Assembly (NCBI RefSeq): GCF_016595435.1
Contig: NZ_JAENIJ010000011.1
Span: 1 to 64,000 of the forward strand
Direction of reading: 5' to 3'
Source: Luteolibacter pohnpeiensis
GTDB lineage: Bacteria; Verrucomicrobiota; Verrucomicrobiia; Verrucomicrobiales; Akkermansiaceae
DNA: 64,000 nt
The position numbers and the translations under genes are program-made. Below, one piece after another: positions 13,103 through 54,000 of the stretch. The notes below the pieces were generated by a model that was not told where the DNA came from, did not search any database, and worked only from the letters and a program-made list of their open reading frames with translations. The number at the start of each line of letters is the position of its first letter. The stretch's first letter is position 1.

Positions 13103-13107
13103 AATTC

Positions 13108-14100: not shown

Positions 14101-14112
14101 TAGATGTAGCAT

Positions 14113-17049: not shown

Positions 17050-17130
17050 TCTACAATCGTTGAATTAAATCAACTTAGAATAACCACCAGAATATCTCAA
17101 GTTGATGCAACATTAATAATAGCAGACAAT

Positions 17131-17973: not shown

Positions 17974-17996
17974 TATAAACTTATTTCTCTATTTAT

Positions 17997-19043: not shown

Positions 19044-19083
19044 TCGTTTGGAAAGATTATAAATTCCGAATTTATTCTACTCC

Positions 19084-21392: not shown

Positions 21393-21426
21393 TACCTCAT
21401 TGATCTCAATCGAATACTGAGCATTC

Positions 21427-24273: not shown

Positions 24274-24366
24274 GAAGGCAAATTCTGTCAGCACTCCTGC
24301 ATTGATCCGTTAGGAATTTGATCCATGATCCCGCTGCACTAACTATATTGAACCATTTCATTTCGC

Positions 24367-25773: not shown

Positions 25774-25807
25774 CCACCACTGCTGAAGAAACCTGGTTGG
25801 ATACCCG

Positions 25808-28012: not shown

Positions 28013-28025
28013 TCATTTCTGCCAG

Positions 28026-28056
28026 TGGTGTTAGACCGCGACCCTGGGTAACACCA
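28026..28056. terminator. Hairpin between convergent genes
   Basis: TGGTGTTA (28026-28033) and TAACACCA (28049-28056) form a perfect 8-bp stem with a 15-base loop in the 54-base space between the ligase gene and the epsI-like gene on the opposite strand. It lacks a T run on either side, so as a shared terminator it is only a candidate. Confidence 0.35.
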
Positions 28057-28066
28057 GGCACACCAA

Positions 28067-28801
28067 TCAGGATTTGATCTGATCCCAGTCGATCTGCTCT
28101 TCCAGTAAGTCTGTTAGGAAGGACTGCAGTTTTTGATCTGCCTCGGCTTCCGTAACAGTCAAATCAGCACCGGCATAAGGAATTTTTCCAAACCACATGG
28201 AACTTGAGACGTAAGCCCAACGTTGATCCATCCCCCTGACCAGCCGATCTTTCATATCGACAAAAGTCCGAGTCAAATGGTCATAAACCAGCTGATCATG
28301 GCCGACGAAGAAGTAGTAGGTTACGCAATTTAAATCAAAACCCTGCTTCCGGTCATCCGATGTGGTTACCCTTTGGACGGATAAGAGTCGGCGCATGGTA
28401 ACTTCTTTACCATCTTTCAAGTTCACTTTTACGTCTGAGGAAGAGAGAATCGTATGTCCTTGGGCAGGCATGCAACGCTCAGGACGGTGAATTGAATTGT
28501 TCAGATCGTATCCGGATAATACAATCGATAAATCGACGCGATCACACACTGGATTGCCGTCCGATGTCCATTCGCCAGGCCTTGGCTTCAGGCAAATCGC
28601 TTTCGCAAATTGAGTATCTTTGGCTAAAACTTCCAGCTCCTTTTGACTCGGCGGAATACGTTTTAATACCCACTTCCCAGAAAAATTGGGGAGAGACATG
28701 CTAATTGCAGATTGGGCAATTGCACCAGCTTGAGGCAGTAAGTATACAGCCGATAATGTTCCGGCTAAAAATAAGGGAAGGATCAATAGCCTGAATTTCA
28801 T
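28067..28801 (-). CDS. EpsI-domain exosortase-associated protein
   Basis: A 244-residue exported protein with an N-terminal hydrophobic segment (LLILPLFLAGTLSAVYLL) and an EpsI-like domain. HRPERCMPAQGH is the family's conserved Cys/His segment, and CVTYYFFVGH, MDQRWAYVSSSMW follow. EpsI domains occur fused to or beside exosortases in exopolysaccharide loci; their biochemistry is undefined. The start overlaps the exosortase stop by 4 bases, so the two are translationally coupled. Confidence 0.82.
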   Translation of the reverse strand: MKFRLLILPLFLAGTLSAVYLLPQAGAIAQSAISMSLPNFSGKWVLKRIPPSQKELEVLAKDTQFAKAICLKPRPGEWTSDGNPVCDRVDLSIVLSGYDLNNSIHRPERCMPAQGHTILSSSDVKVNLKDGKEVTMRRLLSVQRVTTSDDRKQGFDLNCVTYYFFVGHDQLVYDHLTRTFVDMKDRLVRGMDQRWAYVSSSMWFGKIPYAGADLTVTEAEADQKLQSFLTDLLEEQIDWDQIKS

Positions 28802-29817
28802 GCCTCTGTTAGATTTGAATTTGGGGCTTGCTCATTTTTGATCACTACACGTCTGAGCACTTTCTTGCCACCCTTTTGCTTCCATGGGAGCCCTCCTTCC
28901 AAAAGGGAATGGACAGCAAATAATGACAATAGCGAAAACGGATAAAACAGCAGCAACCCAGACCAGTCATGCCATGTTGTCCGGGCCCATTGCGCATCAC
29001 CATACTCCGCAATCACGAATATCGAGATCACTCTCAGTGCGTTCCCGATGATTGCCAATGGGAACGCCATAAAAAACAACACCCCACGCTTCCAAAAAGC
29101 CATCTTCGCCACATAGGCCCATGCAGCGGAAACCATAATCAACGCCATGAGTGAGCGAATCCCACTACAGCCACCCGCTATATCCAGTGGCTCCCAATTC
29201 CCTTTCACAGGCAAAACCTTCGAGCCCTCAGTATAAGTTTCTACTCCGAACAAACTCGACCCATGATGGGCAAGTGAAGTCGCCAGCATCTGAAGCTGAG
29301 TCGTCGCTTGCTGGAATGATGGCAAAGGCACAGCCAGCCAAAGGAAGAACAGCGGAAAAAGGAGCAATCGTGATGTTCTCCATCCCCAGAAGTAAAGGCC
29401 ACATCCCCAAAGCACGAAGGGCAAGGCACCACCTGCTATCCGCGGCTGTAAGGTCCGATAAGCCACCGTGTAGAGGAGAGCGCCGATGAATACTGAGGCC
29501 AAGCCCCAGTTACTCCCCTTCCCGACAGATGCACGAAGCGCCTTGAAATTAAAAATGATCAGCCCGATCGCAACGAGTGGCACCAATGGGCCGTGTTCAT
29601 AACCGGTTTCCGAGTTCCAAGCGCCTTTGAGCCAAACGAAAAGGGATTGATCGCGATTGGCGTTGTAGCGAGGCGTCACTCCGAAAAACCAGAGGACAAT
29701 CAGAGCAGATGCGACCAATACACCCCACTCAAACAGCCCCCAGCTGAGCTGAGACTTAGAATTGGCATGCTGGGCGTCCTGAGAGGGCGCCCTATTTGTT
29801 GAAGGAGAGTCAGACAA
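28798..29817 (-). CDS. Exosortase (membrane cysteine transpeptidase)
   Basis: A 339-residue polytopic protein of the exosortase/archaeosortase family. The catalytic triad is intact: Cys217 in AGGCSGIRSL, Arg262 in NALRVISI and His283 in TTWHDWSGLLLF. EHGPLVPLV near residue 75 is the other family landmark. Exosortases cleave PEP-CTERM-type C-terminal signals and attach the proteins to a surface glycan or lipid. It is the first gene of a two-gene - strand operon converging on the polysaccharide locus. No PEP-CTERM tail was found among the complete proteins of the window. Confidence 0.92.
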   Translation of the reverse strand: MSDSPSTNRAPSQDAQHANSKSQLSWGLFEWGVLVASALIVLWFFGVTPRYNANRDQSLFVWLKGAWNSETGYEHGPLVPLVAIGLIIFNFKALRASVGKGSNWGLASVFIGALLYTVAYRTLQPRIAGGALPFVLWGCGLYFWGWRTSRLLLFPLFFLWLAVPLPSFQQATTQLQMLATSLAHHGSSLFGVETYTEGSKVLPVKGNWEPLDIAGGCSGIRSLMALIMVSAAWAYVAKMAFWKRGVLFFMAFPLAIIGNALRVISIFVIAEYGDAQWARTTWHDWSGLLLFYPFSLLSLFAVHSLLEGGLPWKQKGGKKVLRRVVIKNEQAPNSNLTEA

Positions 29818-34893: not shown

Positions 34894-35532
34894 ATGGCCG
34901 ACGCAAACATGATCAATCCGCTGAAGCCTTCATGGCGGCGAACTCTCGGGCGGGTGATCCTGATCTGTGCGGGGTCTGTGGCGATTTTGTTTCCGGCCTG
35001 GCTGCCGAATCAAAAAAACGAACCGATCGAGCGCGGCACCGTCGAATTGTTGCAGGCGGCGCTTTTGGCTGCTTCTGCAGCGGTTTTGCTCGGTGCGCTT
35101 CCTCATGCTGGGAGCAACCGCGCGGTCTGCCGCATGCTTTCGTTTTTCCTGCTCGCAGCCTTTGTTGGCGAGATTGAGGACTTTGTTTCCGGCATTCTGG
35201 GTTGGAAATTTCCGGAAGTCTGGGTCATCGGAATCCTGCTGCTGTGTGCGTTGATCACCGCCATGCGACACCGAAAGGTAGTGGTCCGATTCTTTGGCAG
35301 CATGGGAAATCACGCCGCATCCGGCTTGGTCGGCGCCGCACTTTTGATCATCTACGTCTTCGATCGGGTCATTGGCAGCCGCCGGTTTTGGAAAGCCGCT
35401 CTGGGAGATGCCTTTTCGCCATCGGTGCCGACGATTTGCGTGAGCTACCTCGAATTGCTCGCCTGTTACCTGATTTTCATCGGTTCCATCGGCTTTGCCA
35501 TCACCCTGGCGCGCAGATCGGAGGGGGAGTAG
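34894..35532 (+). CDS. Polytopic membrane protein of unknown function
   Basis: A 212-residue protein with about six hydrophobic helices (near residues 20-38, 50-68, 80-100, 110-127, 143-163 and 182-206). Acidic residues lie within or at the edge of helices: EIEDF near 93-97, FDRVIG near 157 and YLELLACYL near 184. I do not recognise a family. Its gene precedes a lipid A acyltransferase-like gene by 52 bases on the same strand and is probably cotranscribed with it, suggesting a part in outer-membrane lipid or glycan assembly. Confidence 0.65.
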   Translation: MADANMINPLKPSWRRTLGRVILICAGSVAILFPAWLPNQKNEPIERGTVELLQAALLAASAAVLLGALPHAGSNRAVCRMLSFFLLAAFVGEIEDFVSGILGWKFPEVWVIGILLLCALITAMRHRKVVVRFFGSMGNHAASGLVGAALLIIYVFDRVIGSRRFWKAALGDAFSPSVPTICVSYLELLACYLIFIGSIGFAITLARRSEGE

Positions 35533-35584
35533 GTCGCAACAAGGCCTTGCCAGCCACCGGCAGTGGAACTACCAAACATCCGAA

Positions 35585-36841
35585 GTGCCCCGCAAAACAC
35601 CGGTAAATCGTTCGAAAATCCTGAAGTGGCGGCTGGAATGGCTGGCCCAGCTGGCATTCGAGCGGCTCGCTTCACTTTTGTCCGGTCCCGCCGTTTTTCG
35701 GGTAGGAGAAACGCTGGGAGATCTGGCGTGGCGGCTGATGCGATCCCGCCGCCAGATTGTGCTACGGAATCTGCGAATCGCGTTTTACGGCGAGCATGAG
35801 CTGCCTGCCTTGGAAAGCATGGTCCGGCAGATTTTTCGCCGCACCGGCGCAAATCTGTTTTCCGCGCTGCACACGGCAAAACTCAATGTCGACCAAGTCG
35901 ATCGCATCGTCTCGGTGGATAATCCAGAAGTGGCCCAAGAAGCATTTCAGCAAAGCCGAGGCCTCATCACCCTGCCGTCCCACATGGGAAACTGGGAAGT
36001 TCTGACGCGGATCAAACGCAAATTTCCCCCAGGCCATCAAATCGGCGCGTTTTACCGCCCCCTGAACAACCCGTATTTGAACCAGCGGATCGTTGCCCAG
36101 CGGGAGGCGGAAGGGTCGAGATTGTTTTCGAAATTCGAGAGTTTTCACCAGGCCACCACTTTCGTCAAAGAAGGCGGAGTCCTCGGTATTTTGGCCGATC
36201 AACGCACCGGCCTCAGTGGCAAGCCAATCCCATTTTTCGGCCGCCTCACCCGTGTCAGCCCGCTGCCCTCTCTGCTGGCACGGCGCAGCAAAACCGAGGT
36301 TCTGGCCATGTCACTCACTACGGATTCACCCGGAAAATGGCGACTGCGCTATCATCCCGTAGAGGATCGCGCCAGCACGGCGAGCTGCATGAAAAGCATC
36401 GAGGAAGCCATGAAAGTGAGCCCCATCGATGTCTTCTGGATGCAGGAACGCTGGCGGGTGATGGTTCGCCCCAGACGCACGATCCGTGAATGGCTGGGGG
36501 AGGATTCGCCCTGCGGCGAAAAACCACACCGTGCGCTTCTCTGGCTCGCTGGTGCTCCGGAATCCTGGAAATTATCGGAAAACTGGACCCATCCGGATGT
36601 GAACTACGAGTTCGTGCTCGCACCCGGCCAACCGTCACCCGATTGGCTGCCGGCCGATGCTGTCATTCATCACACTCCGACAGGTGGCACGATGAAGTCC
36701 TTCGCTCGCGAAATTTTCCGCATCGACCGGGCGCACCCGCTTCCAATCGACTACATCCTGACATCGCGCGCGCCGGAGCCACTGGTGAAGGCCGCCAAGT
36801 CGCAAAGCATTTCCATCGTTTCGCTTCGATCCAAGACCTGA
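35585..36841 (+). CDS. LpxL/HtrB-like lipid A acyltransferase with C-terminal extension
   Basis: A 418-residue inner-membrane protein. A short hydrophobic N-terminal stretch is followed by the lysophospholipid acyltransferase domain: LPSHMGNWEVL contains the catalytic His of the family's HxxxxE motif, FYRPLNNPYLN, LADQRTG and FFGRLTRVSPLPSLLARRS follow. It would transfer a secondary acyl chain to a lipid A-like acceptor. The GTG at 35585 is preferred; an ATG at 35495 would overlap the previous gene. About 110 residues after the acyltransferase domain (from about 300) have no counterpart in LpxL proteins. Confidence 0.82.
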   Translation: MPRKTPVNRSKILKWRLEWLAQLAFERLASLLSGPAVFRVGETLGDLAWRLMRSRRQIVLRNLRIAFYGEHELPALESMVRQIFRRTGANLFSALHTAKLNVDQVDRIVSVDNPEVAQEAFQQSRGLITLPSHMGNWEVLTRIKRKFPPGHQIGAFYRPLNNPYLNQRIVAQREAEGSRLFSKFESFHQATTFVKEGGVLGILADQRTGLSGKPIPFFGRLTRVSPLPSLLARRSKTEVLAMSLTTDSPGKWRLRYHPVEDRASTASCMKSIEEAMKVSPIDVFWMQERWRVMVRPRRTIREWLGEDSPCGEKPHRALLWLAGAPESWKLSENWTHPDVNYEFVLAPGQPSPDWLPADAVIHHTPTGGTMKSFAREIFRIDRAHPLPIDYILTSRAPEPLVKAAKSQSISIVSLRSKT

Positions 36842-36926: not shown

Positions 36927-37748
36927 ATGAAGCAATCCGTAATCATCAGCACCTACAACCAGCCCCGATGGCTGGAGAAAGTGATGCATGGTTATCTGCA
37001 GCAGACGTTCCGCGATTTTGAATTGGTCATCGCCGATGACGGCTCCGGGCCGGAAACGCGCGAGTTGATCGAGCATTTCCGCAAGCGAGCATCGTTCCCG
37101 ATCCAGCACGTTTGGCAGGAGGACGATGGCTTCCAGAAAAGCCGGATTTTGAACAAGGCCACGGTCGCGGCCACCGGGGACTATCTGGTGTATTCCGATG
37201 GCGACTGCATCCCGCGCCCGGATTTCCTGCAAATTCACGATCGTTGCGCCGCGCCGGGTCGATTTCTTTCCGGCGGTTACTGCAAATTGCCCATGTCACT
37301 CAGCCAGGAGCTGAGCACCGAAGACATCGATTCAGGAAAGGCGTTTGACGTCTCATTCCTGAAATCGCGCGGGTTGGATGACTTCTCGCCCATTTTCAAA
37401 ATCGGCCTGCCAAAAGGGCTCGGATCGCTCATGGATCGATTGATCCCCGTGAATGCGACCTGGAACGGGCACAATGCCTCTGGTTGGAAAACTGATATTC
37501 TGGCTGTGAACGGCTACAATGAGGAAATGCAATACGGAGGGCAGGATCGGGAATTGGGCGAACGGCTGGTGAACTCAGGCATTCACGGCCATCGCATTCG
37601 CCACCGGGCCATCGTACTCCACCTCGATCACAAACGCGGCTACAACACCCCGGAATCCATCGCGAAGAACCGCGCGATCCGCGATGAGGTCGTGAAAACC
37701 CGCCGGACTTGGTGTCCTCACGGAATCCAAAAACAAACCCATCCATGA
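36927..37748 (+). CDS. Glycosyltransferase family 2 with galactosyltransferase-like C-terminus
   Basis: A 273-residue GT-A enzyme. SVIISTYNQPRWLEKV and LVIADDGSG form the nucleotide-binding half, YSDGDCIPR is the DxD motif, and ASGWKTDILAVNGYNEEMQYGGQDRELGERL is split here as NGYNEEM and GGQDREL, the signature of chondroitin-synthase-like and WaaE-like GT2 proteins. It acts in the cytoplasm, perhaps on the lipid A-core. The next gene starts within its stop region (ATGA). Confidence 0.87.
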   Translation: MKQSVIISTYNQPRWLEKVMHGYLQQTFRDFELVIADDGSGPETRELIEHFRKRASFPIQHVWQEDDGFQKSRILNKATVAATGDYLVYSDGDCIPRPDFLQIHDRCAAPGRFLSGGYCKLPMSLSQELSTEDIDSGKAFDVSFLKSRGLDDFSPIFKIGLPKGLGSLMDRLIPVNATWNGHNASGWKTDILAVNGYNEEMQYGGQDRELGERLVNSGIHGHRIRHRAIVLHLDHKRGYNTPESIAKNRAIRDEVVKTRRTWCPHGIQKQTHP

Positions 37749-38860
37749 GTTCCAATTTCGGAAAATCCCTCGAAGCTTCATTCCGCCGCATTCGCCCCTT
37801 TCTTGCTCCATCCTACCGCCGCGCTTTCGGGCAAATGCTGAAGCGCGGGATGAAAGAGCACCGCGAGGGCGAGCCGATCGTGGTTTGCGACTTCGCCAAT
37901 CCGGCGATCGATTCCGTGGGTGGGCGCTATTACGCGAGCATGGTCCTGGATTTGATCGAAGCCGGGTACTTCCCCGTATTCACCGCCCATCGCCCCACCC
38001 TATCCAGCTTTGTCATCAGCCGGAAAAAATCCCTGCTGCTGCATCACCGCATGGGTGTGATCCGATCGCTGGATGAGTTGAAGCAGCCTTACTTCCTGAT
38101 TACCGATTCCTGCGGGCCAGTCCCCGAGCTCGCGGAAAAAGTCGTGCGCGTGACCTACGATCACCGCCTGAAGCAAAGCGAGAGCGAGATCGAGCTGCCA
38201 TTTTTCGTCCATCCTCAAATCGGCACCAAGGTTGCGCTGCCCCATCCTTACCAAGTCGCCACACCACGCAGTGCCCGGATCTTTTTCGGCGGAAACACCA
38301 TGGAACATCGCTACGACAAGGATGTCCTCGGAGATTTTTATGGCCTGTTAACCCGTCGGGAAATGCTGGCCACTGCTTCTTCAGCTGCCGGCGACACGGT
38401 CTATCGCCCAACCGATGCGGAAACATGGCTTGCCGCAGATGATTTTCACCCGTTCGTTTTATTCGAGACCCAAAACGTGAAAATCCCGCAGAAGCGTTGG
38501 ATCGATGCGTTGGCCAAAGCCGATTTCTTCCTCGCCTGCCCCGGTGTCGGCATGCCGCTGTGCCACAATTTGATCGAAGCAATCGCTGGCGGTGCCATTC
38601 CGATTTTGCAATACGCCGCCTATTTGCCCAAACCGCTGCAGCACGGGAAAAACTGCATTTCCTTCAGCGATGTGAAATCTCTGGAAAGCGCGATCCGATC
38701 CGTCCTCGAAATGCCGGGCGAGCAAATCATCGAGATGCGCCAAAACGTGAAGGACTACTACGACGAGTTCATGGCACCGGGCCAATTTAGCAGGCGGCTT
38801 TTCGCCGATGGGTTCCCGAATCGGACTTTGCTGATCAATGCTTATCGCGTGCCTCGATGA
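37745..38860 (+). CDS. GT-B-like glycosyltransferase (exostosin/GT47-like C-terminal region)
   Basis: A 371-residue protein with no firm family. Residues 1-25 are basic; the central part has VVCDFANPAID and DSVGGRYYASMVLDLIEAGY, and the last third reads like a GT-B donor site: ADFFLACPGVGMPLCHNLIEAIAGGAIPIL, quoted here in pieces ADFFLACPG, MPLCHNLIEAI, AGGAIPIL, followed by ALRSVLEMPGE-like helices. The overlap of 4 bases at both ends shows tight coupling with the GT2 and ELM1-like genes. A sugar-transfer role is inferred. Confidence 0.55.
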   Translation: MSSNFGKSLEASFRRIRPFLAPSYRRAFGQMLKRGMKEHREGEPIVVCDFANPAIDSVGGRYYASMVLDLIEAGYFPVFTAHRPTLSSFVISRKKSLLLHHRMGVIRSLDELKQPYFLITDSCGPVPELAEKVVRVTYDHRLKQSESEIELPFFVHPQIGTKVALPHPYQVATPRSARIFFGGNTMEHRYDKDVLGDFYGLLTRREMLATASSAAGDTVYRPTDAETWLAADDFHPFVLFETQNVKIPQKRWIDALAKADFFLACPGVGMPLCHNLIEAIAGGAIPILQYAAYLPKPLQHGKNCISFSDVKSLESAIRSVLEMPGEQIIEMRQNVKDYYDEFMAPGQFSRRLFADGFPNRTLLINAYRVPR

Positions 38861-39879
38861 AACGAGTCTGGATCCTCGATGAAGGCAGCCAGGGGCATGT
38901 GGTGCAGTCCCGTGGCTTGGTGCGGGAATTGGCCAAATTCGTCCCAATCGAAGTCACGGAAGTGCCCATTCAATGTTCGGTTCCGCGACGATTCCGGCGC
39001 TCCCTGGTGAAGCGATTGCTGCGCATGCAGCGGAAAATGTGGATGTTTCGCCTACTTCACCCGCGCATGGAACTGCCGGATGAAACGCCCGAGCTGATCA
39101 TTTCCAGCGGCCCACATTCGTTTGCCGCATTGGCGTTTTTATCCAAGTTCTACCAATGCCCATCGGTTTTCGTGCAGGGCACCATCCGGGTTCCGCAAGG
39201 CTCCGTCACTTGCACGCTTCGCCCGGACTCCGATGGCTCGCGTGCGGACATCATTCGCATCCCTCTCCTTTTCAACGAAATCACTCCGGAGGTCATTGCG
39301 AATGGCAAAATCGCCTACGAAACCCGCACCGGGCGGGAAAAATCGGCGCCGTTGAAAGCGCTGTTCATCGGAGAATCCTCCGGAAAAATCGAATTCTCGG
39401 CATCGGACTGGGACCATCTCATCGATTACATCAATCAAAGTTGGCGACGGGACGGCATTCAGTGGCTCGTCAGCACGTCCTACCGCACGCGCCTGGAGCT
39501 TGAGGACAAACTGCGGGAAAACATCGAGCCAGCGGCACTCTTCGATGCAGTTTGGTATTCGCGTGAGCCTCGCAAAATCACCCGGGAATTTCTCGGCATG
39601 GCGGATCAGGTGTTGGTCACCATGGACAGCCTGACCATGATGACGGAAGCCATCGCCAGTGGCAGACCCGTTCAGGTTGTCAGCCCGGCAGATCACCAGT
39701 TTGATCCTGCGGACAGCCACCACCGCTACATTCAGGGATTGATCGATTCCGGGCTGGTCCATCTGCTCATTCCCGGCAAACCCGAATCGGAATCAGTTGC
39801 CGTTTCTGAAATCCGCGATATCGACTACGCTCCATGCATTCGCGCCATGCTGAAACAGATTTCCTGGTCCCATGAGTGA
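38857..39879 (+). CDS. ELM1-like (DUF1022) GT-B-fold protein
   Basis: A 340-residue protein. The start VWILDEGSQGHVVQSRGLV is characteristic of the mitochondrial-fission ELM1 family (formerly DUF1022); LIISSGPHSFAAL, PSVFVQGTIR and MADQVLVTMDSLTMMTEAIASGRPVQVV follow in the GT-B-like order. Bacterial members lie in LPS loci and are suspected glycosyltransferases, but activity has not, to my knowledge, been firmly shown. It overlaps both neighbours, by 4 and 8 bases. Confidence 0.72.
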   Translation: MKRVWILDEGSQGHVVQSRGLVRELAKFVPIEVTEVPIQCSVPRRFRRSLVKRLLRMQRKMWMFRLLHPRMELPDETPELIISSGPHSFAALAFLSKFYQCPSVFVQGTIRVPQGSVTCTLRPDSDGSRADIIRIPLLFNEITPEVIANGKIAYETRTGREKSAPLKALFIGESSGKIEFSASDWDHLIDYINQSWRRDGIQWLVSTSYRTRLELEDKLRENIEPAALFDAVWYSREPRKITREFLGMADQVLVTMDSLTMMTEAIASGRPVQVVSPADHQFDPADSHHRYIQGLIDSGLVHLLIPGKPESESVAVSEIRDIDYAPCIRAMLKQISWSHE

Positions 39880-40888
39880 CCCGCAACTTCATCATCTCTG
39901 CCTCACCCATTCGCCATTGGTCACGCTGGTTTTCCAGACTGCGATGGACCAACAAGGGATTCCGGCTACAAACATCAGCTCGATTTCCCGCAGATCGGTC
40001 CGCCCAGCTGGCCGGGGCATCTGCCTTGATGATCTGTCTGATGGACTTGAAGCCTGCTTCAAAGCCATGAACCGCGCCGGCTACCAGCAGCGGAAAAAAG
40101 CACTCCGCGAAAAAGTTTCGGAACTCACGAACCACCAACCGTTCATCGCCTACCTGCCGCATTTGCGGAAGCCGCTCTATCAGGAAGTCATCAGCCACCC
40201 CGCGTGTGTCGGCTACCAATTCGTCGAAGAAGGATTCAGCTCGATGGCTTGGAAAAATTGGCAGAAATCAGAAACACGCCTCGGGAAGCGGCTTCAGAAC
40301 AAACTCCGCACTCTCATCAGCGGTGCCGCGTATCAATCCGAGCGCGCGATGTTCGACACCGATGACGCCAAATTTTCCGGGGCGATCCGCCTTTCCTCCC
40401 ATGCTTTCGCTGGCATGCCAAAGGTCACGGATGTGGCGGCTGCGATTCCCCCACTCAAAACGGGAAGCACCGAAAAACATCTCTACGCGATTCTGGATAC
40501 CAGCTACTTGCATCGAAAAATCCGTTGGGCGGACTACGAAGCCGCGCTCGTGGATGCGATTCTCGAAGCCGCGGAAGGGATGACATCGATCCGCATCAAG
40601 TTCCACTTCGCTGACAGCGCCGCTCCGTGCCATTTTCAATCGGCCGAATCGAGAATCACTGCCGCCATCGGCAAAAAGTTGATTCTGTTAGATCGGGATT
40701 TTTCCGTCGAAGAAAATCTAACAGGCGACGACTGCCTGCTGTTTGCCGTGACTTCCCTCGGCTATTACTCAGCACTTTTCGGGGCACGCGTGAAATGTTT
40801 TGCACCGGCGGTTCAAGGGCTCAATCTGGATCGATGGATCGAAGATTGCTTGTTGCCGGACGATTTTCGCGCTGTGGTCAAACTCTGA
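39872..40888 (+). CDS. Unknown protein, possibly sialyltransferase-superfamily GT-B enzyme
   Basis: A 338-residue soluble protein without a firm family match. It opens LHHLCLTHSPL; FIAYLPH lies near 91-97, EEG at 119-121, KFH at 243-245 and TSLGYYSALFGARV from 294. This order resembles the D/E-D/E-G, HP and Ser/Thr motifs of the bacterial sialyltransferase/polysialyltransferase families (GT38, GT52), although the HP proline is absent. These enzymes use CMP-sugars. No neu genes are in the window, so CMP-Kdo or another CMP-sugar would be the donor. Overlaps the ELM1-like gene by 8 bases. Confidence 0.45.
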   Translation: MSDPQLHHLCLTHSPLVTLVFQTAMDQQGIPATNISSISRRSVRPAGRGICLDDLSDGLEACFKAMNRAGYQQRKKALREKVSELTNHQPFIAYLPHLRKPLYQEVISHPACVGYQFVEEGFSSMAWKNWQKSETRLGKRLQNKLRTLISGAAYQSERAMFDTDDAKFSGAIRLSSHAFAGMPKVTDVAAAIPPLKTGSTEKHLYAILDTSYLHRKIRWADYEAALVDAILEAAEGMTSIRIKFHFADSAAPCHFQSAESRITAAIGKKLILLDRDFSVEENLTGDDCLLFAVTSLGYYSALFGARVKCFAPAVQGLNLDRWIEDCLLPDDFRAVVKL

Positions 40889-40913
40889 AGCGAGTCCAAA
40901 ACTGACCTCTGCC

Positions 40914-41873
40914 GTGAATCCTCTGAGCCATCATTTAACCCAGCGCAATCTCGCGAGTGTCTCGATGAGACAACGCTGGGTGGACCGGACGGCTTCGCTT
41001 CCCTGCCCGATCGCGCGCTGGGTGGAACATCGCCTTTTCCCATTCCGGCTCAGGCACATGCGGCCGCTTGCCTACGGAGTGTCCGCTGAAATCGACGATC
41101 AGAATATCTGGCAGCTCCAAGTCGGTGAAAAAACGGTGGCGACCAGCGTGCCGCTGGCTCAGCTGCTGGGCACCCCAATCCAACCGGCCACGATCGTTGC
41201 CACCGGGCCTAGCGCAAAATCTCACGAATGGCAGTCCGGCCGGATGATGGTCGCGGTCAATGGCGCGCCGACTTTTCTCAAAGATCGCGGCATCCGGCCA
41301 GACCTGTTGGTTGTCACCGATCCCCAATTCACCAAGTGCTGCTTCGAGCACTTTAAAAATGCGCCCGGCGTTCCTCTCATTACCACCTTCCGCGCCGCTT
41401 CCATGCTGGCAAAGAATGCGCCTGAGGAGCTGGCGAACCGGCCGTTCACGATCATTGAACGCGTCAATTCCTGGTATGGCATTCCCGCCTTGCCACTGGA
41501 GGATTTGCTGATCCTGAATCGCAATGCCGGTAGCCCATTTCACTTTCCTGAATGCACCAAAACCCAATTGAAGGTCGGTTGGAGTGAAAATCCGGAGCTC
41601 GGTTTCTTCTCGGGCTGCAATGTGGTGTTTGCCGCTTTGCAGGTGATGATCGGCTTGGGCGCGCGGGATCTGGAAATCGTCGGCATGGACCTCTGTGGCT
41701 CATCCCGGGTTTATCAGGAGTGCAATCCACAGCCGAGCCTGCTCAAAGAGCAGTATGACCGTTACATTCTGCCATCGTTCGCGATCATGAGTGAGGCTTT
41801 GAAGAGCACCGACATCCGGGTGCGGAACGCCTCACCGGTTTGCCCTTTGCCAACGGAGTTCTTCGCCTCTTAG
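40914..41873 (+). CDS. DUF115/MptE-like Rossmann-fold protein
   Basis: A 319-residue protein. ATIVATGPSAKSHEW (GPS at residues 98-100), MMVAVNGAPTFL and IRPDLLVVTDP form the pattern of DUF115 (MAF/MptE-like) proteins and of GT42-type transferases. FFSGCNVVFAALQVMIGLGARDLEIVGMDL (pieces SGCNVVFAALQ and LEIVGMDL) closes the domain. The start could be GTG 40914 (chosen, 25 bases after the previous stop) or ATG 40965. It may be a sugar transferase or a nucleotide-binding accessory protein of glycolipid synthesis. Confidence 0.5.
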   Translation: MNPLSHHLTQRNLASVSMRQRWVDRTASLPCPIARWVEHRLFPFRLRHMRPLAYGVSAEIDDQNIWQLQVGEKTVATSVPLAQLLGTPIQPATIVATGPSAKSHEWQSGRMMVAVNGAPTFLKDRGIRPDLLVVTDPQFTKCCFEHFKNAPGVPLITTFRAASMLAKNAPEELANRPFTIIERVNSWYGIPALPLEDLLILNRNAGSPFHFPECTKTQLKVGWSENPELGFFSGCNVVFAALQVMIGLGARDLEIVGMDLCGSSRVYQECNPQPSLLKEQYDRYILPSFAIMSEALKSTDIRVRNASPVCPLPTEFFAS

Positions 41874-41934
41874 GCTGCCCCGCGACCGAGAATCGACTTG
41901 TGGGAATATCCGAAGATCGGTAGGTAAGGCCACG

Positions 41935-41940
41935 TATAAT
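41935..41940 (+). promoter_or_regulatory. Perfect -10 hexamer in the spacer before 41992
   Basis: TATAAT occurs 52 bases before the GTG of the next gene, in a 118-base spacer that breaks an otherwise tightly packed gene run. The bases 17 upstream (GAAGAT) are a poor -35. A 5-bp hairpin (CTGGA/TCCAG) follows at about 41947-41961. A separate promoter is plausible but unproven. Confidence 0.3.
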
Positions 41941-41991
41941 GTCTTGCTGGACCGGTTCCAGACCAAGTTTCCAAACCTTAATTAAGCAAGA

Positions 41992-42912
41992 GTGAAGCCG
42001 ACCGTTTTCATACACACCAATCATAAGCAAATCGCAGGAGCGATCGTCAGCCAGCATTCGCTGAAGCGCGCCTCGAAAACCCCGGATGCCTTCGAGGTGA
42101 AAATCCTGGATATCAACGAGTATCCATATTTCTCAGAAATGGACGGCAAATCCTACCTGCGCGGGGGAAAAATGCGGCCATGGCAGTTTGAGGATCTTCA
42201 GTCCTTCACACCATCGCGCTTCATGCCGCCGGAACTCATGGGTTACCAAGGCAAGGCCATCGTGATCGACCCCGATATTTTCGCTGTGGCTGACATCATG
42301 GATCTTTTCAACATGGACATGGAGGGCAAGGCCGTTCGCCTGATCCACAAGCCACGCAAAGATGGCAACGGCTTCGATCGCAAGACCAGCGTGATGCTGA
42401 TGGATTGCGAAAAGCTCAAGCACTGGAAAGTCGAAGAAAGCTTCCGTAGCATGTTCCGCGGCGAGCTTGACTACGTCGATTGGTTATCGATGACCCAAGA
42501 GGACGATTCCACCGTGGGCGATCTCGATGAAGTCTGGAACAGTCTGGATGTGCTGACTCCAGAAACCAAAATGCTGCACACCACACGCCGCGAAACACAG
42601 CCGTGGAAAACCGGATTGCCGGTCGATTTCAGCCGGGGCGCGGACTCGAATTTGAAAATCCGCTTCATGGCCTTGCAGCGCAAACTGTTCGGCAAGGAAG
42701 TCTTCGGTAAAAAATACAAAGCCAACCCCGACCCGCGCCAGGAGCGCCTGTTCTTCGCGTTGTTGAAGGAATGCCTCGACAACGGCATGATGTCCGAGGA
42801 GCTGCTCCGCTCGGAAATGAAAAAAAATCACGTCCGGCACGATGCCTTCAAAGTGATGGCACGCACCAAACCCCTGCCTCCAGCGGACAAGATGGAGGAG
42901 TTTTTCAACTGA
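41992..42912 (+). CDS. GT-A-like (GT8-like) putative glycosyltransferase
   Basis: A 306-residue protein. VFIHTNHKQIAGAIVSQHSLKRA is a typical opening of GT8-like enzymes; AIVIDPDIFAVADI has a D-x-D (Asp93, Asp95) at the site where GT8 binds metal and the nucleotide sugar. SVMLMDCEKLKHW and MLHTTRRETQPW are also in GT8-like positions. A basic, lysine-rich C-terminus suggests membrane association. It starts at GTG. It lies at the end of the overlapping transferase run, convergent with the DUF4254 gene. Donor unknown. Confidence 0.6.
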   Translation: MKPTVFIHTNHKQIAGAIVSQHSLKRASKTPDAFEVKILDINEYPYFSEMDGKSYLRGGKMRPWQFEDLQSFTPSRFMPPELMGYQGKAIVIDPDIFAVADIMDLFNMDMEGKAVRLIHKPRKDGNGFDRKTSVMLMDCEKLKHWKVEESFRSMFRGELDYVDWLSMTQEDDSTVGDLDEVWNSLDVLTPETKMLHTTRRETQPWKTGLPVDFSRGADSNLKIRFMALQRKLFGKEVFGKKYKANPDPRQERLFFALLKECLDNGMMSEELLRSEMKKNHVRHDAFKVMARTKPLPPADKMEEFFN

Positions 42913-42941: not shown

Positions 42942-43529
42942 TCACGATTTGGCACCGCCGTAGAGCTGCGGATTCAGTGCCGGATCGTTGTACATCTTGA
43001 ACTGATAATAGACACCGAAGGTTCTGCGACCTTCGGTGACTTCCTGTAACAGTTCGCCCAGGCACTGGGTCAAATCGGAACGTTGGTGAAGAATTCGGGC
43101 CAGCTTCGCGCCGCAATTTTCGCGATGTTCCGCGCTTGCATCTTCGCGGACGGTTTCTTCAGCCATGTGGAACTCCTTGAGTGCCAGGATGGAAAGACGA
43201 TCGATGATCATCCCTGGCGTTTCCGAATTTTTGGGAACACCGGATTCGGCAGGCTTCAATTCCGCCACCATGAGCTTGTCCATTTCCTCAATGAAGTTGT
43301 TGCGCTCCTGGTTGTAGCGATCGATCGCACGCTTCGCCTGGTGCACTCGCTCAGAGCCGAGATCATCTCGACGCGCGACATCTTCTTCATGCCAGAGCTG
43401 GAAATTCCGTAGGTGATTCTCTTGCACAAGCTTGAGGAAATCTTCACCTCCAGCTGCGGGTTCCACCTCGTGCCAGTGGCGGGTGAGTTCAGTCTGAAGG
43501 GTCGTGATAGCGGTGGGGTCAAAAGTCAT
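42942..43529 (-). CDS. DUF4254 protein
   Basis: A 195-residue, mostly helical protein with NHLRNFQLWHEEDVARR, AKRAIDRYNQERNNFIEEMD and GMIIDRLSILALKEFH, the conserved segments of DUF4254. Family members are commonly found next to heptosyltransferases and LPS genes, here the GT9 gene divergent from it at a distance of 59 bases. No catalytic function is known to me; charged helices suggest protein-protein or nucleotide binding. Confidence 0.82.
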   Translation of the reverse strand: MTFDPTAITTLQTELTRHWHEVEPAAGGEDFLKLVQENHLRNFQLWHEEDVARRDDLGSERVHQAKRAIDRYNQERNNFIEEMDKLMVAELKPAESGVPKNSETPGMIIDRLSILALKEFHMAEETVREDASAEHRENCGAKLARILHQRSDLTQCLGELLQEVTEGRRTFGVYYQFKMYNDPALNPQLYGGAKS

Positions 43530-43588: not shown

Positions 43589-44563
43589 ATGTCCGGAACT
43601 GAGGTACACCCATTGCCCAAAACCCTACTGGTCGTAAAACCGTCCTCGCTTGGGGACATCGTGCATGCTTTGCAAGTTCTTCAATCCGTTTCGCGCCAAT
43701 TGCCGGATTGTAAGATCACCTGGATCGCCCGGGATCGATTCGCACCATTGGTGGAATCGGCTCCATTTATCCATGAGGTGATCCATTATCGACGCAAGCT
43801 CGGCTGGAGAGGAATTCGTGAAATCGTCAAAATCCTGCGCACCCGCCAATTCGACATGGTCTGGGACATGCAGGGCCTGCTCCGATCCGGACTGATGACT
43901 GCCGCAGCAGGATCTCCGCAAAAATGGGGCCGGTCCGATTCCCGTGAAGGCGCCGGCATGTTTTATGGCAGGCAAGTTCCATTACCCGCCACTCCTGCTC
44001 CCCATCATGCAGTCACGATTTTGCAGGAATTTCCCACCGCACTCGGGCTGAGTTCCGACATCGAATTTCCGTTAAATCTCTCGGAAGTTGGATCATACGA
44101 CTGGTCCTCATTTTTTTCCGGTGATCCTCGTAAAACCTTTGTGATTTTCACCGATAGCCGTGGCGCGGAAAAAGAGTGGAAAGGGTTCCACGAACTCACC
44201 CGCTTGATTTTCGAAACGATTCCAGGCGGCCGGATCGCGTGGTGCGCCGGTGCTCCTGAGAGCCCTGATTTCGATGTGCCAGAGGATCGATTTCTCAATC
44301 TCACTGGATGCCCCTTCGATGAAATGCTCGCCCTAGCTCGGCAAAAGTCCGTTTTCATCGGCAATGACAGCGGCCCCATGCACCTGTCATCCGCAGTGGG
44401 GAATCTCGTGCTTGCGATCTTCGGCCCGACCTCGCCGCAACGTTTCGGACCTTGGCCGATCGATTCCCCAGTCCACGAATCCGTGACTGCTGCGGGCGGC
44501 AATCTGGCCAATCTTTCGCCCGAAGCGGTCATGCATTCACTGCGCTCACTTTTGGACCGGTAA
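43589..44563 (+). CDS. Glycosyltransferase family 9 (heptosyltransferase-like)
   Basis: A 324-residue GT-B enzyme. LLVVKPSSLGDIVHALQVL is the ADP-heptose-binding family start, WDMQGLLRSGLM follows the acceptor side, and the donor site includes SVFIGNDSGPMHLSSAVG and IFGPTSPQRFGPW. It resembles WaaC/WaaF and would add heptose to the LPS inner core. DUF4254 is divergently encoded; together they support the view that this region builds a lipid A-core glycolipid. Confidence 0.92.
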   Translation: MSGTEVHPLPKTLLVVKPSSLGDIVHALQVLQSVSRQLPDCKITWIARDRFAPLVESAPFIHEVIHYRRKLGWRGIREIVKILRTRQFDMVWDMQGLLRSGLMTAAAGSPQKWGRSDSREGAGMFYGRQVPLPATPAPHHAVTILQEFPTALGLSSDIEFPLNLSEVGSYDWSSFFSGDPRKTFVIFTDSRGAEKEWKGFHELTRLIFETIPGGRIAWCAGAPESPDFDVPEDRFLNLTGCPFDEMLALARQKSVFIGNDSGPMHLSSAVGNLVLAIFGPTSPQRFGPWPIDSPVHESVTAAGGNLANLSPEAVMHSLRSLLDR

Positions 44564-46539: not shown

Positions 46540-47316
46540 CTAAGAAGTCATTTTGCGATCCATCCGATGAAATGAACACAGCGCGAGCACCACGGCAAAA
46601 GCCATGAGCGCGGAGCTATGGATCAGGATTTCACCTAACGGAAAATGTCCCCATACTGTGAACTGCAACAATTTCACTCCATGATAAAAGGGGGATAATT
46701 GCACGATTGCAGCGAGCCATGATTTTTCCGGAACTGGAAAAAAGACTCCCGAGAGATAGAAGATGGGAGCGATCAAAAACGAATACACCGTTTGGAATTG
46801 ATTGATATTCCTGACCCAGGATGCGGCCAGCAAGCCAATCGCAGCACATGGCAAGGCAAGAGTCCCTGCCACAAATGGCGCAACAATCAGTGCCCATAGA
46901 TTTGGCAACAGTCCAAGCAGCAGGAGAACCATCGCAACGCCCAATGCCATCAGGGCGGCCCGGATGAAAACCCACATGAACTCCCCGAGCACCACTTCAC
47001 TTACGCCAATTGGCGTAGTTAGCATCGCCTTGAAAACCGACTCGAATGTCATCCTAACAAAAAAGCCGTAGCTGCTTTCGAAGAACGCGGTGAAAAGCGC
47101 GGTGGTGGCGATCATCCCGGGAGCGAGATACTGGGCATAGCTGTGGCCCTGGATCTGCCCGACAAAGGGCGAAAGCCCCAGGCCCAATGAACCCAGAATC
47201 AGTGCCGGATCCGCCAAAGTCGGCGATATGTTCGCCAGGAAATCTTTGCGATACACCATCCAGTTCCGGACGACGACGTGCCAGCCTAGCCGAAGAGTGA
47301 CGAGCGGTTCAGTCAT
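46540..47316 (-). CDS. ABC-2 type transporter permease (NodJ-like)
   Basis: A 258-residue protein with six hydrophobic segments and the ABC-2 pattern: YLAPGMIATTALFTAFFESSYG near the middle and FLIAPIFYLSGVFFPV towards the end, the NodJ/DrrB signature. It forms the membrane part of an exporter with the ATPase encoded just upstream, whose end overlaps its start by 8 bases. The substrate could be a lipid, glycolipid or drug; nothing in the sequence decides it. Confidence 0.9.
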   Translation of the reverse strand: MTEPLVTLRLGWHVVVRNWMVYRKDFLANISPTLADPALILGSLGLGLSPFVGQIQGHSYAQYLAPGMIATTALFTAFFESSYGFFVRMTFESVFKAMLTTPIGVSEVVLGEFMWVFIRAALMALGVAMVLLLLGLLPNLWALIVAPFVAGTLALPCAAIGLLAASWVRNINQFQTVYSFLIAPIFYLSGVFFPVPEKSWLAAIVQLSPFYHGVKLLQFTVWGHFPLGEILIHSSALMAFAVVLALCSFHRMDRKMTS

Positions 47317-48229
47317 GTTGTTTCAATTCGCTGCCTGTGAGTTTCAGATACACGTCTTCCAAGTTCGCGGGCCGGAGCTGCAGGGCATCGACCCCAGCAC
47401 TTTTTTGGAGCTCTAACAAATCATCGAAGGCAGGAGCCCGAACACAACATTGATGGCCTTGATGAAAAAATTCCCAATCTGCCTTCAAGTGCGGGCGGAT
47501 ATCCTCTTGGGCATCGCCAGAGAAAATTCCGACATATCCTGGGGTTTCCTGAGCGATCAGCTCGCGTGGCGCGCCTGCAGCCACTACCTTCCCCTGGTCC
47601 AGAATCACGATACGATCGCACAACACCTCGGCTTCGTGCATGTAATGGGTGGTTACCAATATCGTTTTCCCTTGGCTCCGAAGGCTGGTCACCGTTTCCC
47701 ACAACAAATGACGCACCGATGGGTCCAGCCCCGTCGTGGGTTCATCCAGGATCAGCAATTCGGGATCCGCCAGAAGTGCGCGCACAAAGGTGAGGCGGCG
47801 CTTCATCCCGCCGGATAAGGTATTGATGGTCGCATCCCGCTTGGTTTCCAGCGACATGCGCTCCAGCAACTGGAGAATCCGTTCATCTGCGCTGGCCTTT
47901 TTCAAACCGCTGAAACGGGCGTAAATTCGCATGTTTTCGAGCACGGTCAGCCCTTCATCCAAGGCATTTTCCTGGGGCACGACTCCGATCCGGCGTTTAA
48001 TCGCCCGAGCTTGACCAGCTGGGTCCATGCCAAATACCTCCAGCTCGCCACCGGTCCGTTGGACCACCCCGTAGAGGCAGCCGATGAAAGTCGATTTGCC
48101 TGCTCCATTCGGGCCGAGAAGGCCCACGCATTCCCCGGTTTTCACTTCCAGATCCAGCGCGCAGAGTGCTTCAAAATCACCAAATCGTTTGGCGACACTG
48201 CGAGCGGATAGGACGAGCGGGGCTGACAT
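47309..48229 (-). CDS. ABC transporter ATP-binding protein (NodI-like)
   Basis: A 306-residue ATPase. Walker A is GPNGAGKST, the Q-loop VVPQENALDEGLT, the ABC signature LSGGMKRRL, and Walker B LLILDEPTTGLDP; the H-loop His is in LVTTHYMHEAE. The C-terminal 70 residues are the NodI/DrrA extension. It is first in a two-gene operon with the permease. No Shine-Dalgarno sequence precedes the ATG. Confidence 0.93.
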   Translation of the reverse strand: MSAPLVLSARSVAKRFGDFEALCALDLEVKTGECVGLLGPNGAGKSTFIGCLYGVVQRTGGELEVFGMDPAGQARAIKRRIGVVPQENALDEGLTVLENMRIYARFSGLKKASADERILQLLERMSLETKRDATINTLSGGMKRRLTFVRALLADPELLILDEPTTGLDPSVRHLLWETVTSLRSQGKTILVTTHYMHEAEVLCDRIVILDQGKVVAAGAPRELIAQETPGYVGIFSGDAQEDIRPHLKADWEFFHQGHQCCVRAPAFDDLLELQKSAGVDALQLRPANLEDVYLKLTGSELKQHD

Positions 48230-51053: not shown

Positions 51054-54000
51054 ATGAAGATAAAACCGTCCTCCTTATTGCGTGGCAGATTCTTCGCACC
51101 TAGCGTTGCCGCCACTGTCTTAAGCACCTTATTGTTATCCTCCGCCGCCCAAGCGAGGGAAGCCGCCTATAAAATCTATCGTTGGACTCCAACTGCCGTA
51201 AACACCACCTCATCGACGGCAGTTCAATTATCCGAGTTCAATTTTTCCTATAAGGGACAGCCGCTCAATATGAATGGCAATCTCCCTGTCGGGGACGCGG
51301 TCAACGTGACCGTCACCGATGGTTCGGAACGGACCACCGGAGAATGGCCGGGCAATCTGGTGGATGATAATACCAAAACCAAGTGGTACAGCTCCACGCT
51401 GGCCCCTCTCGTTTTCACTTTCGACGAAGCGACACCGATCGATTCCTACAATTTTGCCACCGCCAATGACTATGATTCCCGGACTCCTACGGCATGGAAA
51501 TTGGAAGGCAGTAACGACGGCATCCTTTTCGAAACCTTGGACTCCCGCAGCAGCTATGCCGCCTTGTCGAAATACGCTTATTTCACCTGGCAAAATGGGT
51601 TCGCTCTAACCAGCCCAACGACCCTTCCTGCAATCCAATCGATTTCCGCGACGACGCCTACGACCATCGCCAGCGGCGGGTCCGTCACGCTCTCCTACAC
51701 GATCACTTCGTCTACCGCCCTCACCAGTGTTGTCCTGAATCCCGGCAATATCTCATTGGGAACGGATCTGAGCAGTGCTTACACCGTCAAACCAACGGAG
51801 ACCACCACCTACACTTTGACCGCGACGAATGCCTCGGGCTGGGTGAGTCAGAATGTCGAAGTTCGCGTCACCCCGACGAAAACCCAGCAATACCGCTATG
51901 TTAGGTTCACCCCACTCGCATTCCGTGGCGTGGTTCCAAACTCGGTCCAAATTGGTGAGTTCGAGTTCTTCATGGACGGGACACAAGTCCCCGTCGCCTC
52001 AATTGAAAACCGCGGCGGTCGTTTCTCCAATTCTGGCCCGTTGGTCCACCTGACCGACGGCGATGTTTACACCAAATGGTTGGATTTCAACCGTGGTGGC
52101 ATCATCTTCGACTTCGGCTCCAGTGTGCAGTTCAACAGCTACCAGATGACCACGGCAAACGACGAACAGAGTCGTGACCCTGTCGAATGGTTGATGGAGG
52201 GAAGTGATGATTACAACACATGGGTCATCATCGATCACCTTGGTCAAAATGCGTATTATCCGTACCCATACGAACGGACCACTGAAGACGGTTCCATCAC
52301 AACGACCGGAAAAATCCCGTTCCCGACCTTGCCGACACCGCTCGTTTGGTCCGGAACCACCTCAAATTCCGAATGGAACGGCACCAATACCAATTTCAGC
52401 GGCACCACCTTCGCCGATGGAGATTCGGTCTTGTTCGATGACACCGCGCAGTCCGGTGATGTGAATGTCACCTCCGTCGTCACCCCCGGTCAGTTGATCT
52501 TCAACAATAGCACCTTGGATTACACCCTCGGTGGAACCGGTGTTATCTCGGGCTCTGCGGACCTGACCAAATCCGGCACCGGCACCCTTACCATCGATTC
52601 ACCCAACTATCTGGATGGCGTGGTTACAATCGAAGGCGGCACTTTGGTGACCAACGTAGCCGGTGCATTCGGTCGAGCAGACTACAACCGTCCGCTGATG
52701 CTGGATAACGCCACTCTGGAAGTGAACGCACCTGTTGAAGAAGTCGATGGCGTGACCACAGTGGTTCCGGTTTACAACCACAAGCCGTTGTTGATGTCGA
52801 ACAGCACGATTGACGTTGCTTCAAATGTCGACTTCACCCACTCAGGCAAATTCCATTGGGACCAAACCATTACCAAGACGGGTGCGGGAACCCTGAAGCT
52901 CTACGGCTATCAGGACTCCAGCGCGACGACGGACAACAACAAGCTCGTGGTTGAAGAAGGTGCCGTTGAATTTGGTGACTACCACTTCAACACCTTCTCC
53001 ATTGCGAATAGCTACTACATCGACGTCATGCCAGGCGCCCGCATCACCGGAACCAAGGCCAACGCCTTCGGTGGTAACTACATCAACGGCTATTCAACCA
53101 TCGGCCAGATCCGCCTGGATGAAACGGCGATCATGTCGATTGCTTCCACTCAATATCTGACCACCGGAGTTCTCGATGTGGACGGTGTCACACAAGGACG
53201 CCTGCTCCTCAAGGGCGCTTACCTGAGCGGTGCAGGCCAATTGGTCGACAACCGGAATGACTCGACTTACCTCGACGGCTCGAACGCTTCCCGAAGTGTC
53301 ATCAGCACCGAGGCGAGCTCGCTTTCCTCCAAAATCAACTGCGCCAGCCTGTATGCTTATCGCCAACACTGGATCTTTGACGTGGTGGAAGGTGAAGCCA
53401 TCGAGGACCTCCTCGTGGACAGTACCATTATCGGTAGCTACGGCATCGTGAAGCAAGGCGGCGGTAACATGGTGCTTCTCCAAGACAGCACTTACTCCGG
53501 GATCAAGGCAACTTACATGTCCGCCTATGACACGGATTCCAGTAACCCGTCGCAGAAAGCATTCGACTACAGCTATGGAACAGTTGTGGAAGACGGCCGC
53601 CTGACCCTCATCAACCCGATGAGCACCACCACGGGCAGTGCCACCGGCGCTTCCGCGGTCTTGGTTGAGGAAGCTGGCATCCTTTCCGGAACCGGCTCCG
53701 CCCTTGGCGACGTCACCATCGACGGCACCGTCGATCCCGGCGACCTCGGATACGAGCTTCCAATCGCCAATCTGATCCTCGGCAACACGACGTTGAACGG
53801 CTCCTACAAATGGGAAGTCAACGGAGCATCCGTGGATACAGTGAATGGCGAAACCGGCACCGACCTTCTCGTGGTTCAAGGCAACCTGACCCTCGGTAGC
53901 GGCGCAGCACTCCAAGTTGCCCCGACCGGCAGTGGTTTCACCTCCTCCAGCTATGTGATTGCCACCTACACCGGCACCCGCACGGGAACGTTTGCTTCGG

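Follow-up and report, generated by a model that had tools for sequence, protein, structure and literature searches.

Organization of the locus

The window analyzed here is a stretch of 64,000 nucleotides from Luteolibacter pohnpeiensis (NCBI RefSeq assembly GCF_016595435.1, contig NZ_JAENIJ010000011.1, positions 1 to 64,000 of the forward strand); it corresponds to C22 among the 254 contigs of a 4.67-Mb genome (98.8% complete). It carries a run of glycosyltransferase (GT)-type genes, g1 to g6, between a gene for an LpxL-like lipid A acyltransferase and a DUF4254/GT9 pair. The first five, at positions 36927 to 41873, probably form a block, with g6 as a neighbor outside the conserved part, and we asked what this block makes. 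Six plus-strand open reading frames (ORFs) were confirmed within positions 36927 to 42912, and the families that an initial annotation had given them held up in Pfam searches and fold models; the flanks were likewise as it had described them. The features are as follows.

35495 to 36841, plus strand: LpxL/HtrB-like lipid A acyltransferase, upstream anchor of the locus (PF03279, 2.4e-34)
36927 to 37748, plus strand: g1, GT2 glycosyltransferase with a Glyco_transf_7C segment (PF00535, 5.2e-19; PF02709, 4.8e-6)
37745 to 38860, plus strand: g2, GT-B glycosyltransferase by fold (AlphaFold model; no Pfam match above the cutoff)
38857 to 39879, plus strand: g3, ELM1 (PF06258, 6.6e-30), KdoT-type glycosyltransferase, predicted CMP-Kdo transferase
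39872 to 40888, plus strand: g4, sialyl/polysialyltransferase-like GT-B protein (fold match to 5wcn), predicted CMP-Kdo (CMP-ulosonate) transferase
40914 to 41873, plus strand: g5, DUF115/MptE-like (PF01973, 9e-11) and WaaZ-like, predicted Kdo transferase
41992 to 42912, plus strand: g6, weakly GT8-like GT-A protein (PF01501, 0.0015, below the cutoff), detached neighbor
42942 to 43529, minus strand: DUF4254 protein, between g6 and the GT9 gene (PF14063, 1.8e-52)
43589 to 44563, plus strand: GT9 heptosyltransferase I-like protein (PF01075, 2.1e-22; TIGR02193, 6.8e-34, 117.5 bits, below the cutoff of 185.3)

Here Kdo stands for 3-deoxy-d-manno-oct-2-ulosonic acid and CMP for cytidine monophosphate. 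The LpxL-like ORF is given from its listed TTG, and the real start may be further in. For g2 and g5, the most likely starts are ATG 37745 and GTG 40914 and not the earlier TTG codons of the ORF list, because the related proteins begin with MxPLE or a similar sequence. With these starts, the junctions measure −4 bp (g1/g2), −4 bp (g2/g3), −8 bp (g3/g4), +25 bp (g4/g5), and +118 bp (g5/g6); three of the five therefore overlap, and g6 is detached. The overlaps of 4 to 8 bases in the initial annotation thus apply to the first three junctions. Of the single six-gene assembly line that it had proposed, a recurring cassette of codirectional glycosyltransferase genes remains; the six-gene unit itself was rejected, since g6 stands 118 bp apart and was unmatched in the loci extracted from relatives. 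The GT8 score of g6 was 18.6 bits, below the gathering cutoff of 24.3, and partial matches to it (33 to 35% identity, best E value of 2e-14) were found in 4 of 117 other genomes. A scan for promoter- and terminator-like sites at the locus was no richer than in shuffled sequence.

Conservation of the block in related genomes

Homologues of the five genes, whose products have 273 to 371 residues, occur in unchanged order in other species at 41 to 65% identity, so the block is more than a chance arrangement. Homologous loci recur within the genus and in one sister genus. Each of g2 and g5 was found in 10 of 118 genomes searched (for g2, the window genome included and all in one genus), and nine genomes were common to the two sets (Fisher's exact test, P = 1e-11, uncorrected for relatedness). 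The complete series g1-g2-g3-g4-g5 is contiguous in genomes G036 (contig C128) and G067. In G072, the order is kept, g4 and g5 being about 2.3 kb apart, and in G016, g1-g2 and g3-g4-g5 lie on separate contigs. Four further genomes (G083, G064, G065, and G010, in the last of which it is split over frames) carry a GT8 gene in the position of g3-g4; the genome search of G065 gave no g5 match. The locus of the second genus (G347) reads as a homologue of unknown-34894, LpxL, GT4, GT90, g1, g2, and, further along, GT8 and g5. In phylum-wide samples, the g2 profile matched 7 of 387 genomes, two of them just at 2.6e-5 and 8.4e-6. Of the g2 loci elsewhere, 15 were examined, and 10 of them have a g1 homologue (58 to 65% identical) next to g2; it is missing from this position on contig C315 of G036 and in the distant loci of G469, G433, and G475, and G064 has a short fragment only. 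Such retention of g1 and g2 with exchange of the genes in the middle is as in a lipopolysaccharide (LPS) core locus. Scattering of the genes in relatives, which would have spoken against the initial annotation, was thus seen in part, as middle genes are exchanged between species.

Among the 10 other near g2 loci that have at least 1 kb of upstream sequence, 4 (G016, G062, G083, and G347) have an LpxL-like gene no more than 3 kb upstream. The homologue in G062 is partial, at a contig end, and two GT genes separate it from g1 in G347; none was seen in the distant g2 loci. This linkage in several species makes the proposed product, an oligosaccharide linked to lipid A, plausible.

Some loci showed features of their own. 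In genome G036, the locus occurs in two variants, on C128 and on C199; both include genes for a HAD phosphatase and a KdsB-like protein (KdsB2, see below), and a third g2, without g1, lies on C315. In G010 (locus L081, 9700 to 11833), both g2 and the GT8 gene are broken up into different reading frames, through decay or an assembly error. A 337-residue protein without a Pfam match follows g5 in G062 (L077, 3417 to 4430) and in G036:C199 (L009, 3012 to 4019), and the two copies are 88% identical.

Family and fold assignments of g2 and g3

No Pfam family matched g2 above its cutoff, RXYLT1_C alone appearing at 0.019 (14.8 bits, against 27). In Foldseek, the AlphaFold model of g2 (predicted local distance difference test score [pLDDT], 81.8) matched a tetrahydrobiopterin glucosyltransferase first (9v0w; 6.3e-5; template modeling [TM] score, 0.39). 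In VIA, the exostosin EXT2 was best (7sch_B; Z, 14.9; 240 residues aligned; root mean square deviation [RMSD], 7.3), followed by the remaining GT-B chains at Z values of 11 to 14, the nearest at 14.0 and 13.1. Because several GT-B chains score close to EXT2, only the fold class of g2 is safe. By its modeled fold, g2 is perhaps exostosin (GT47)-like: EXT2 heads its VIA list, whereas a different GT-B enzyme leads in Foldseek, and neither the exostosin/GT47 nor the RXYLT1-type family is reached at the Pfam cutoff. Profile searches of Protein Data Bank (PDB) sequences with g2, g3, and g4 gave chance-level matches only.

The family assignment of g3 was clear (PF06258, 104.7 bits against a gathering cutoff of 27). 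In Acinetobacter baumannii, the "ELM1-like" KdoT, the only ELM1 protein for which we found a demonstrated activity, is described to transfer a third Kdo residue (KdoIII) from CMP-Kdo onto Kdo2-lipid IVA or Kdo2-lipid A in vitro (PMC12856342), acting after WaaA (PMC10936431, PMC12856342). The KdoT-GnaT core oligosaccharide locus described in these papers and the window block both place an ELM1-family gene in a cluster of LPS core-type glycosyltransferase genes. The window block differs in having no GnaT-like GT4 gene, in coming from another phylum, and in adding two CMP-ulosonate-type genes, of predicted function, after g3. Within the SRRT motif of KdoT, R180 is reported as important and R179 as not (PMC12856342). 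An alignment of eight g3 homologues showed an S-x-R-(T/S) motif in which R210 was kept in 8/8 and the preceding position varied. Homologues of g3 occur in 32 of 118 genomes, with E values below 1e-99 in five (window genome, G016, G067, G036, and G072). Relatives of g3 lie 1 to 3.3 kb from an LpxL-like gene in G009, G013, and G073, and no such gene was seen in the g3 loci extracted from G016, G036, G067, G072, G031, and G051.

The g4 model resembles sialyl- and polysialyltransferases

The model of g4 (pLDDT, 86.5) matched a bacterial polysialyltransferase first in Foldseek (5wcn; 1.5e-9). A second fold search again placed 5wcn_A first (Z, 16.4; 308 residues aligned; RMSD, 6.1), and ranks 1 to 22 were all sialyl- or polysialyltransferases, with Z values from 16.4 to 11.0. 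GT80 sialyltransferases scored 13.0 to 10.8 (best, 2zwi at 13.0), and general GT-B enzymes followed from 10.9 down. With 5wcn_A ahead of the first row that is not a sialyltransferase (10.9), the predicted fold is a GT-B fold of the GT38/GT52/GT80 type. The motif (D/E)(D/E)G was present as EEG at residues 119 to 121 in 6/6 homologues, in a loop that the model places between a strand and a helix, and H245 was likewise present in 6/6. An EEG loop and a histidine are features described for polysialyltransferases (PMC5517516, PMC2169525). The E120-to-H245 spacing of 125 residues equals that between E153 and H278 of the Neisseria meningitidis enzyme (NmB-polyST). The paper on MhPST notes that β-Kdo transferases have the HP motif, too. 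In these respects, g4 is like the GT38, GT52, and GT80 families; it differs in the lack of a sequence-level match, in a motif treated below, and in that its carriers gave no match to NeuB, so that sialic acid is unlikely as its donor. Membership of GT38 by sequence was unsupported, as family model and profile searches gave no match, and neither g4 nor g5 as a single sequence matched a PDB sequence.

The distribution of g4 is narrow. A scan of the genome contigs matched one locus, and a search of 59 genomes gave three with a match, the window genome included, and two more came from the loci extracted for G067 and G072. Among 387 genomes of the phylum-wide samples, the g4 profile found the window alone, with known g4 carriers not among the matches listed. 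A diverged g4 paralogue in G036:C199 (L009, 5208 to 6224), 26% identical, retains a classical KFHP motif and has a KdsB2-HAD pair and a YrbL-like gene at a distance of about 3 kb.

g5 belongs to the DUF115/MptE/Maf superfamily and resembles WaaZ

With 42.3 bits (9e-11), g5 exceeded the gathering cutoff of the DUF115/MptE-like family PF01973 (34.6). It also matched the model of the KdoIII transferase WaaZ (TIGR04437, 1.8e-12) at a sub-cutoff score given below, and g5 was rejected as WaaZ proper. In profile searches, the matches were Maf (5mu5, 2.4e-4) and MptE (8sd5, 3.3e-4), and that to the sialyltransferase Cst-II, at 0.1, was at chance level. A g5 tree did not settle which of the relatives' g5 and g5b the window sequence is closer to. 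The initial annotation had called the enzymes of the block not yet assigned. This applies to g2 and g4, which match no curated Pfam family, and no longer to g3, as KdoT shows an activity for ELM1 (PMC12856342), or to g5 with its resemblance to WaaZ.

Supply of Kdo and the occurrence of a second KdsB

We searched the g2 carriers for NeuB and obtained no match in 10/10 genomes searched (of these, G010 has a completeness of only 84%; G347 lay outside the search); the same search matched G009 and 9 of the 14 control genomes. KdsA and WaaA each had one match in 12/12 genomes; for WaaA in G083, this was a fragment (3e-5), and WaaA of the window genome lies on another contig (C232).

A pair of genes for a HAD phosphatase and KdsB2 is present in five loci of four genomes (G016, G036 twice, G067, and G072). 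It directly adjoins a g5-type gene in four of these loci and lies about 6 kb away in G036:C199. KdsB2 scored above the cutoff of the KdsB subfamily model NF003952 in 3/3 sequences tested (235.7 to 237.7 against 193) and was 36 to 38% identical to the four housekeeping KdsB proteins compared. Of the g2 carriers with g3, four of five had KdsB2, and of those without g3, none of five did (Fisher's exact test, P = 0.048, relatedness not removed); in G083 and G064, sub-cutoff second KdsB matches were found elsewhere only. In the g2 tree, the g3 carriers do not group together, which suggests that g3 and KdsB2 were gained or lost together.

A parallel combination of genes in rhizobia

A tblastn search of plasmid records with g5 matched 16 records, with 24 to 27% identity among the 10 of 16 matches listed. 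In Ensifer canadensis, the g5-matching gene lies within about 5 kb of genes for KdsB and ELM1 (PF06258), and in Sinorhizobium medicae, it lies about 1 kb from a KdsB-GT92-ELM1 segment. Sinorhizobium meliloti and Pararhizobium show the same order, with genes 68% and 52% identical, and a rhizobial locus with ELM1, the weakly WaaZ-like gene, and KdsB is on pSymB. In Ensifer, Sinorhizobium, and Pararhizobium alike, the three genes fit into about 5 kb. The rhizobial g5-matching genes matched the WaaZ model weakly (26 to 41 bits) and stayed below the cutoff of the MptE-like family. This pSymB-type locus (KdsB, ELM1, WaaZ-like GT, and GT92) thus shows the same combination of ELM1, a weak WaaZ-like transferase, and KdsB; it differs in that tblastn found no homologue of g2, g3, or g4 on the plasmid records (g1 was not searched; for g2 and g4, no match at 1e-2). 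The combination is an independent parallel to the window block. S. meliloti is known for a Kdo homopolymer capsule, and in strain 1021, a K antigen of this kind is reported to be affected by kdsB2, smb20804, and smb20805 (PMC5539429). The kdsB2 gene of that species is likely the KdsB gene of the rhizobial locus, given that KdsB-like sequences were found at 73 places in 73 plasmid records, with strain 1021 not among the 40 matches listed.

Proposed function and alternative explanations

From the gene layout, homology, fold class, recurrence, linkage, lack of a NeuB match, and co-occurrence with KdsB2 described above, we infer substrates, linkages, order of action, and a product on lipid A. Our favored reading, whose chances are about even, is a Kdo-rich inner-core cassette for LPS or lipooligosaccharide (LOS) at positions 36927 to 41873, with g3, g4, and g5 each using a CMP donor to add a Kdo-type ulosonic acid. 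In this scheme, the single WaaA, encoded elsewhere, would first make the canonical Kdo-lipid A part. The GT2 enzyme g1 and the GT-B enzyme g2 would add one or two constant core sugars, and g3 (KdoT/ELM1), g4 (polysialyltransferase-type GT-B), and g5 (DUF115/WaaZ) would each extend the Kdo-lipid A oligosaccharide from the CMP donor. That donor would be CMP-Kdo from the one KdsB of the window genome, and four relatives have a second KdsB, with a HAD phosphatase, at the locus.

A good number of observations weigh against this proposal. For g3, the window motif reads SYRT and not SRRT, and R210 is presumed from the motif to be the counterpart of KdoT R180. A tblastn search of the plasmid records at 1e-2 gave no homologue of g3, so it is related to the rhizobial ELM1 at the family level only (24%). 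In Pseudomonas, an ELM1 homologue lies beside lptF/lptG and phosphocholine-type genes, and the stretch seen contains no KdsB. For g4, no sialyltransferase model matched in 6/6 homologues at an E value of ≤10, a search in which the HMMER filters discard most matches above about 0.1. The TM score to 5wcn was just 0.47, and UDP-N-acetylglucosamine 2-epimerases came second in Foldseek (9e-6). The HP motif lacks its proline, which is present in one of six homologues and replaced by F in five, and this loss counts against simple membership among the sialyltransferases; P279A of NmB-polyST is described to retain residual activity. The spacing of EEG and histidine is given as 138 residues in MhPST, which differs from the 125 of g4. 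For g5, the score of 47.2 bits is well below the 200 required by the WaaZ equivalog model, with about 90 C-terminal residues aligned only. KdsB2 fails the KdsB equivalog models (TIGR00466, 133.6 to 137.5 against 155.2), and the window genome has no KdsB2 but a single CTP_transf_3 match, which would leave its enzymes dependent on the common pool of CMP-Kdo. No acyltransferase lies just upstream in 6 of the 10 g2 loci (G072, G067, G036:C315, G064, G065, and G010). No enzyme activity or LPS structure was found for this bacterial group.

Last among these points is a Klebsiella record in which a gene between waaC and an O-antigen ligase gene matches WaaZ better than g5 does. By its gene order, it may be WabO. 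If it is, the case for Kdo in g5 is weakened; a review ascribes the incorporation of galacturonic acid to WabO (PMC6358824). The record (CP052389.1, L123), labeled a plasmid, contains tdh and kbl along with waa genes, so that it may be part of a chromosome or a plasmid into which the waa cluster has moved.

This Klebsiella gene, a member of the g5 superfamily in a waa cluster that may not encode a Kdo enzyme, also fits the leading alternative, namely an ordinary variable LPS/LOS core locus in which CMP-Kdo is the donor for only one of g3 to g5, most likely g3, and UDP, GDP, or ADP sugars serve the rest. We regard this explanation as rather unlikely. It agrees with the resemblance of g1, g2, g6, and the GT9 protein to enzymes with ordinary donors and with the GT8 gene that replaces g3-g4 in five genomes (G064, G065, G083, G010, and G347); set against it are the first 22 fold matches of g4, all CMP-sialic acid enzymes, together with its conserved catalytic Glu and His, and the tracking of KdsB2 by g3.

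Quite improbable, in our estimate, is a capsule built on Kdo, or a free oligomer of Kdo on a different lipid, resembling the S. meliloti K antigen and not linked to lipid A. The rhizobial pSymB locus and the poly-Kdo of strain 1021 (PMC5539429) offer a precedent, but no capsule exporter was noted among the block genes and the Pfam-scanned neighbors (many neighbors were unscanned, and an ABC transporter pair is found at 46540 to 48229), and the LpxL-like acyltransferase and GT9 neighbors point to lipid A. We give equally little credence to another CMP-ulosonate as donor (a modified Kdo that KdsB2 would activate, for instance 8-amino-Kdo, or else sialic, legionaminic, or pseudaminic acid), which the polysialyltransferase-like g4, the divergence of KdsB2 from housekeeping KdsB with its sub-cutoff equivalog scores, and a DegT aminotransferase near KdsB2 in G067 (weaker matches in G016 and G083) would suit, but which the NF003952 scores of KdsB2, the single KdsA in 12/12 genomes, and a window genome without KdsB2 oppose; sialic, legionaminic, and pseudaminic acids are disfavored by the unmatched NeuB in all 10 carriers searched.

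Returning to the inner-core cassette, a more specific form of it is possible but doubtful: three CMP-Kdo transferases of unrelated origin would stand side by side and build a Kdo oligomer on lipid A, g4 would represent a new glycosyltransferase family, its sialyltransferase-type fold having been redirected to Kdo, and several species would have a dedicated KdsB2. The undescribed system envisaged in the initial annotation thus survives in part: cassettes of the LPS core type are known in kind, and g2 and g4 lie outside curated families. None of the papers that a literature search returned for the phylum appeared, by title and the start of the abstract, to describe the making of its LPS core. 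If the cassette acts as proposed, the locus would supply assignable inner-core genes for the genus, extend the KdoT (ELM1) mechanism to another phylum, provide a test case for unrelated CMP-sugar transferases converging on Kdo, and give a substrate hypothesis for the g2 and g4 families, which match no curated Pfam model above the cutoff.

Other features of the window

Downstream of the block, the DUF4254 gene (42942 to 43529) is arranged head to head with the GT9 gene (43589 to 44563), and a DUF4254 piece of 80% identity lies about 9 kb from g2 in G065. An ABC transporter pair follows at 46540 to 48229, and positions 51054 to 54470 encode a protein of 1,138 residues that combines an F5/8 type C domain with a passenger-associated repeat. 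Upstream, positions 11678 to 29817 hold an exosortase-linked polysaccharide locus with a flippase, several GT4 proteins, a bacterial sugar transferase, and a Wzy_C protein, followed by an EpsH exosortase with DUF3485; the GC content drops to 0.37 to 0.50 across most of this locus.

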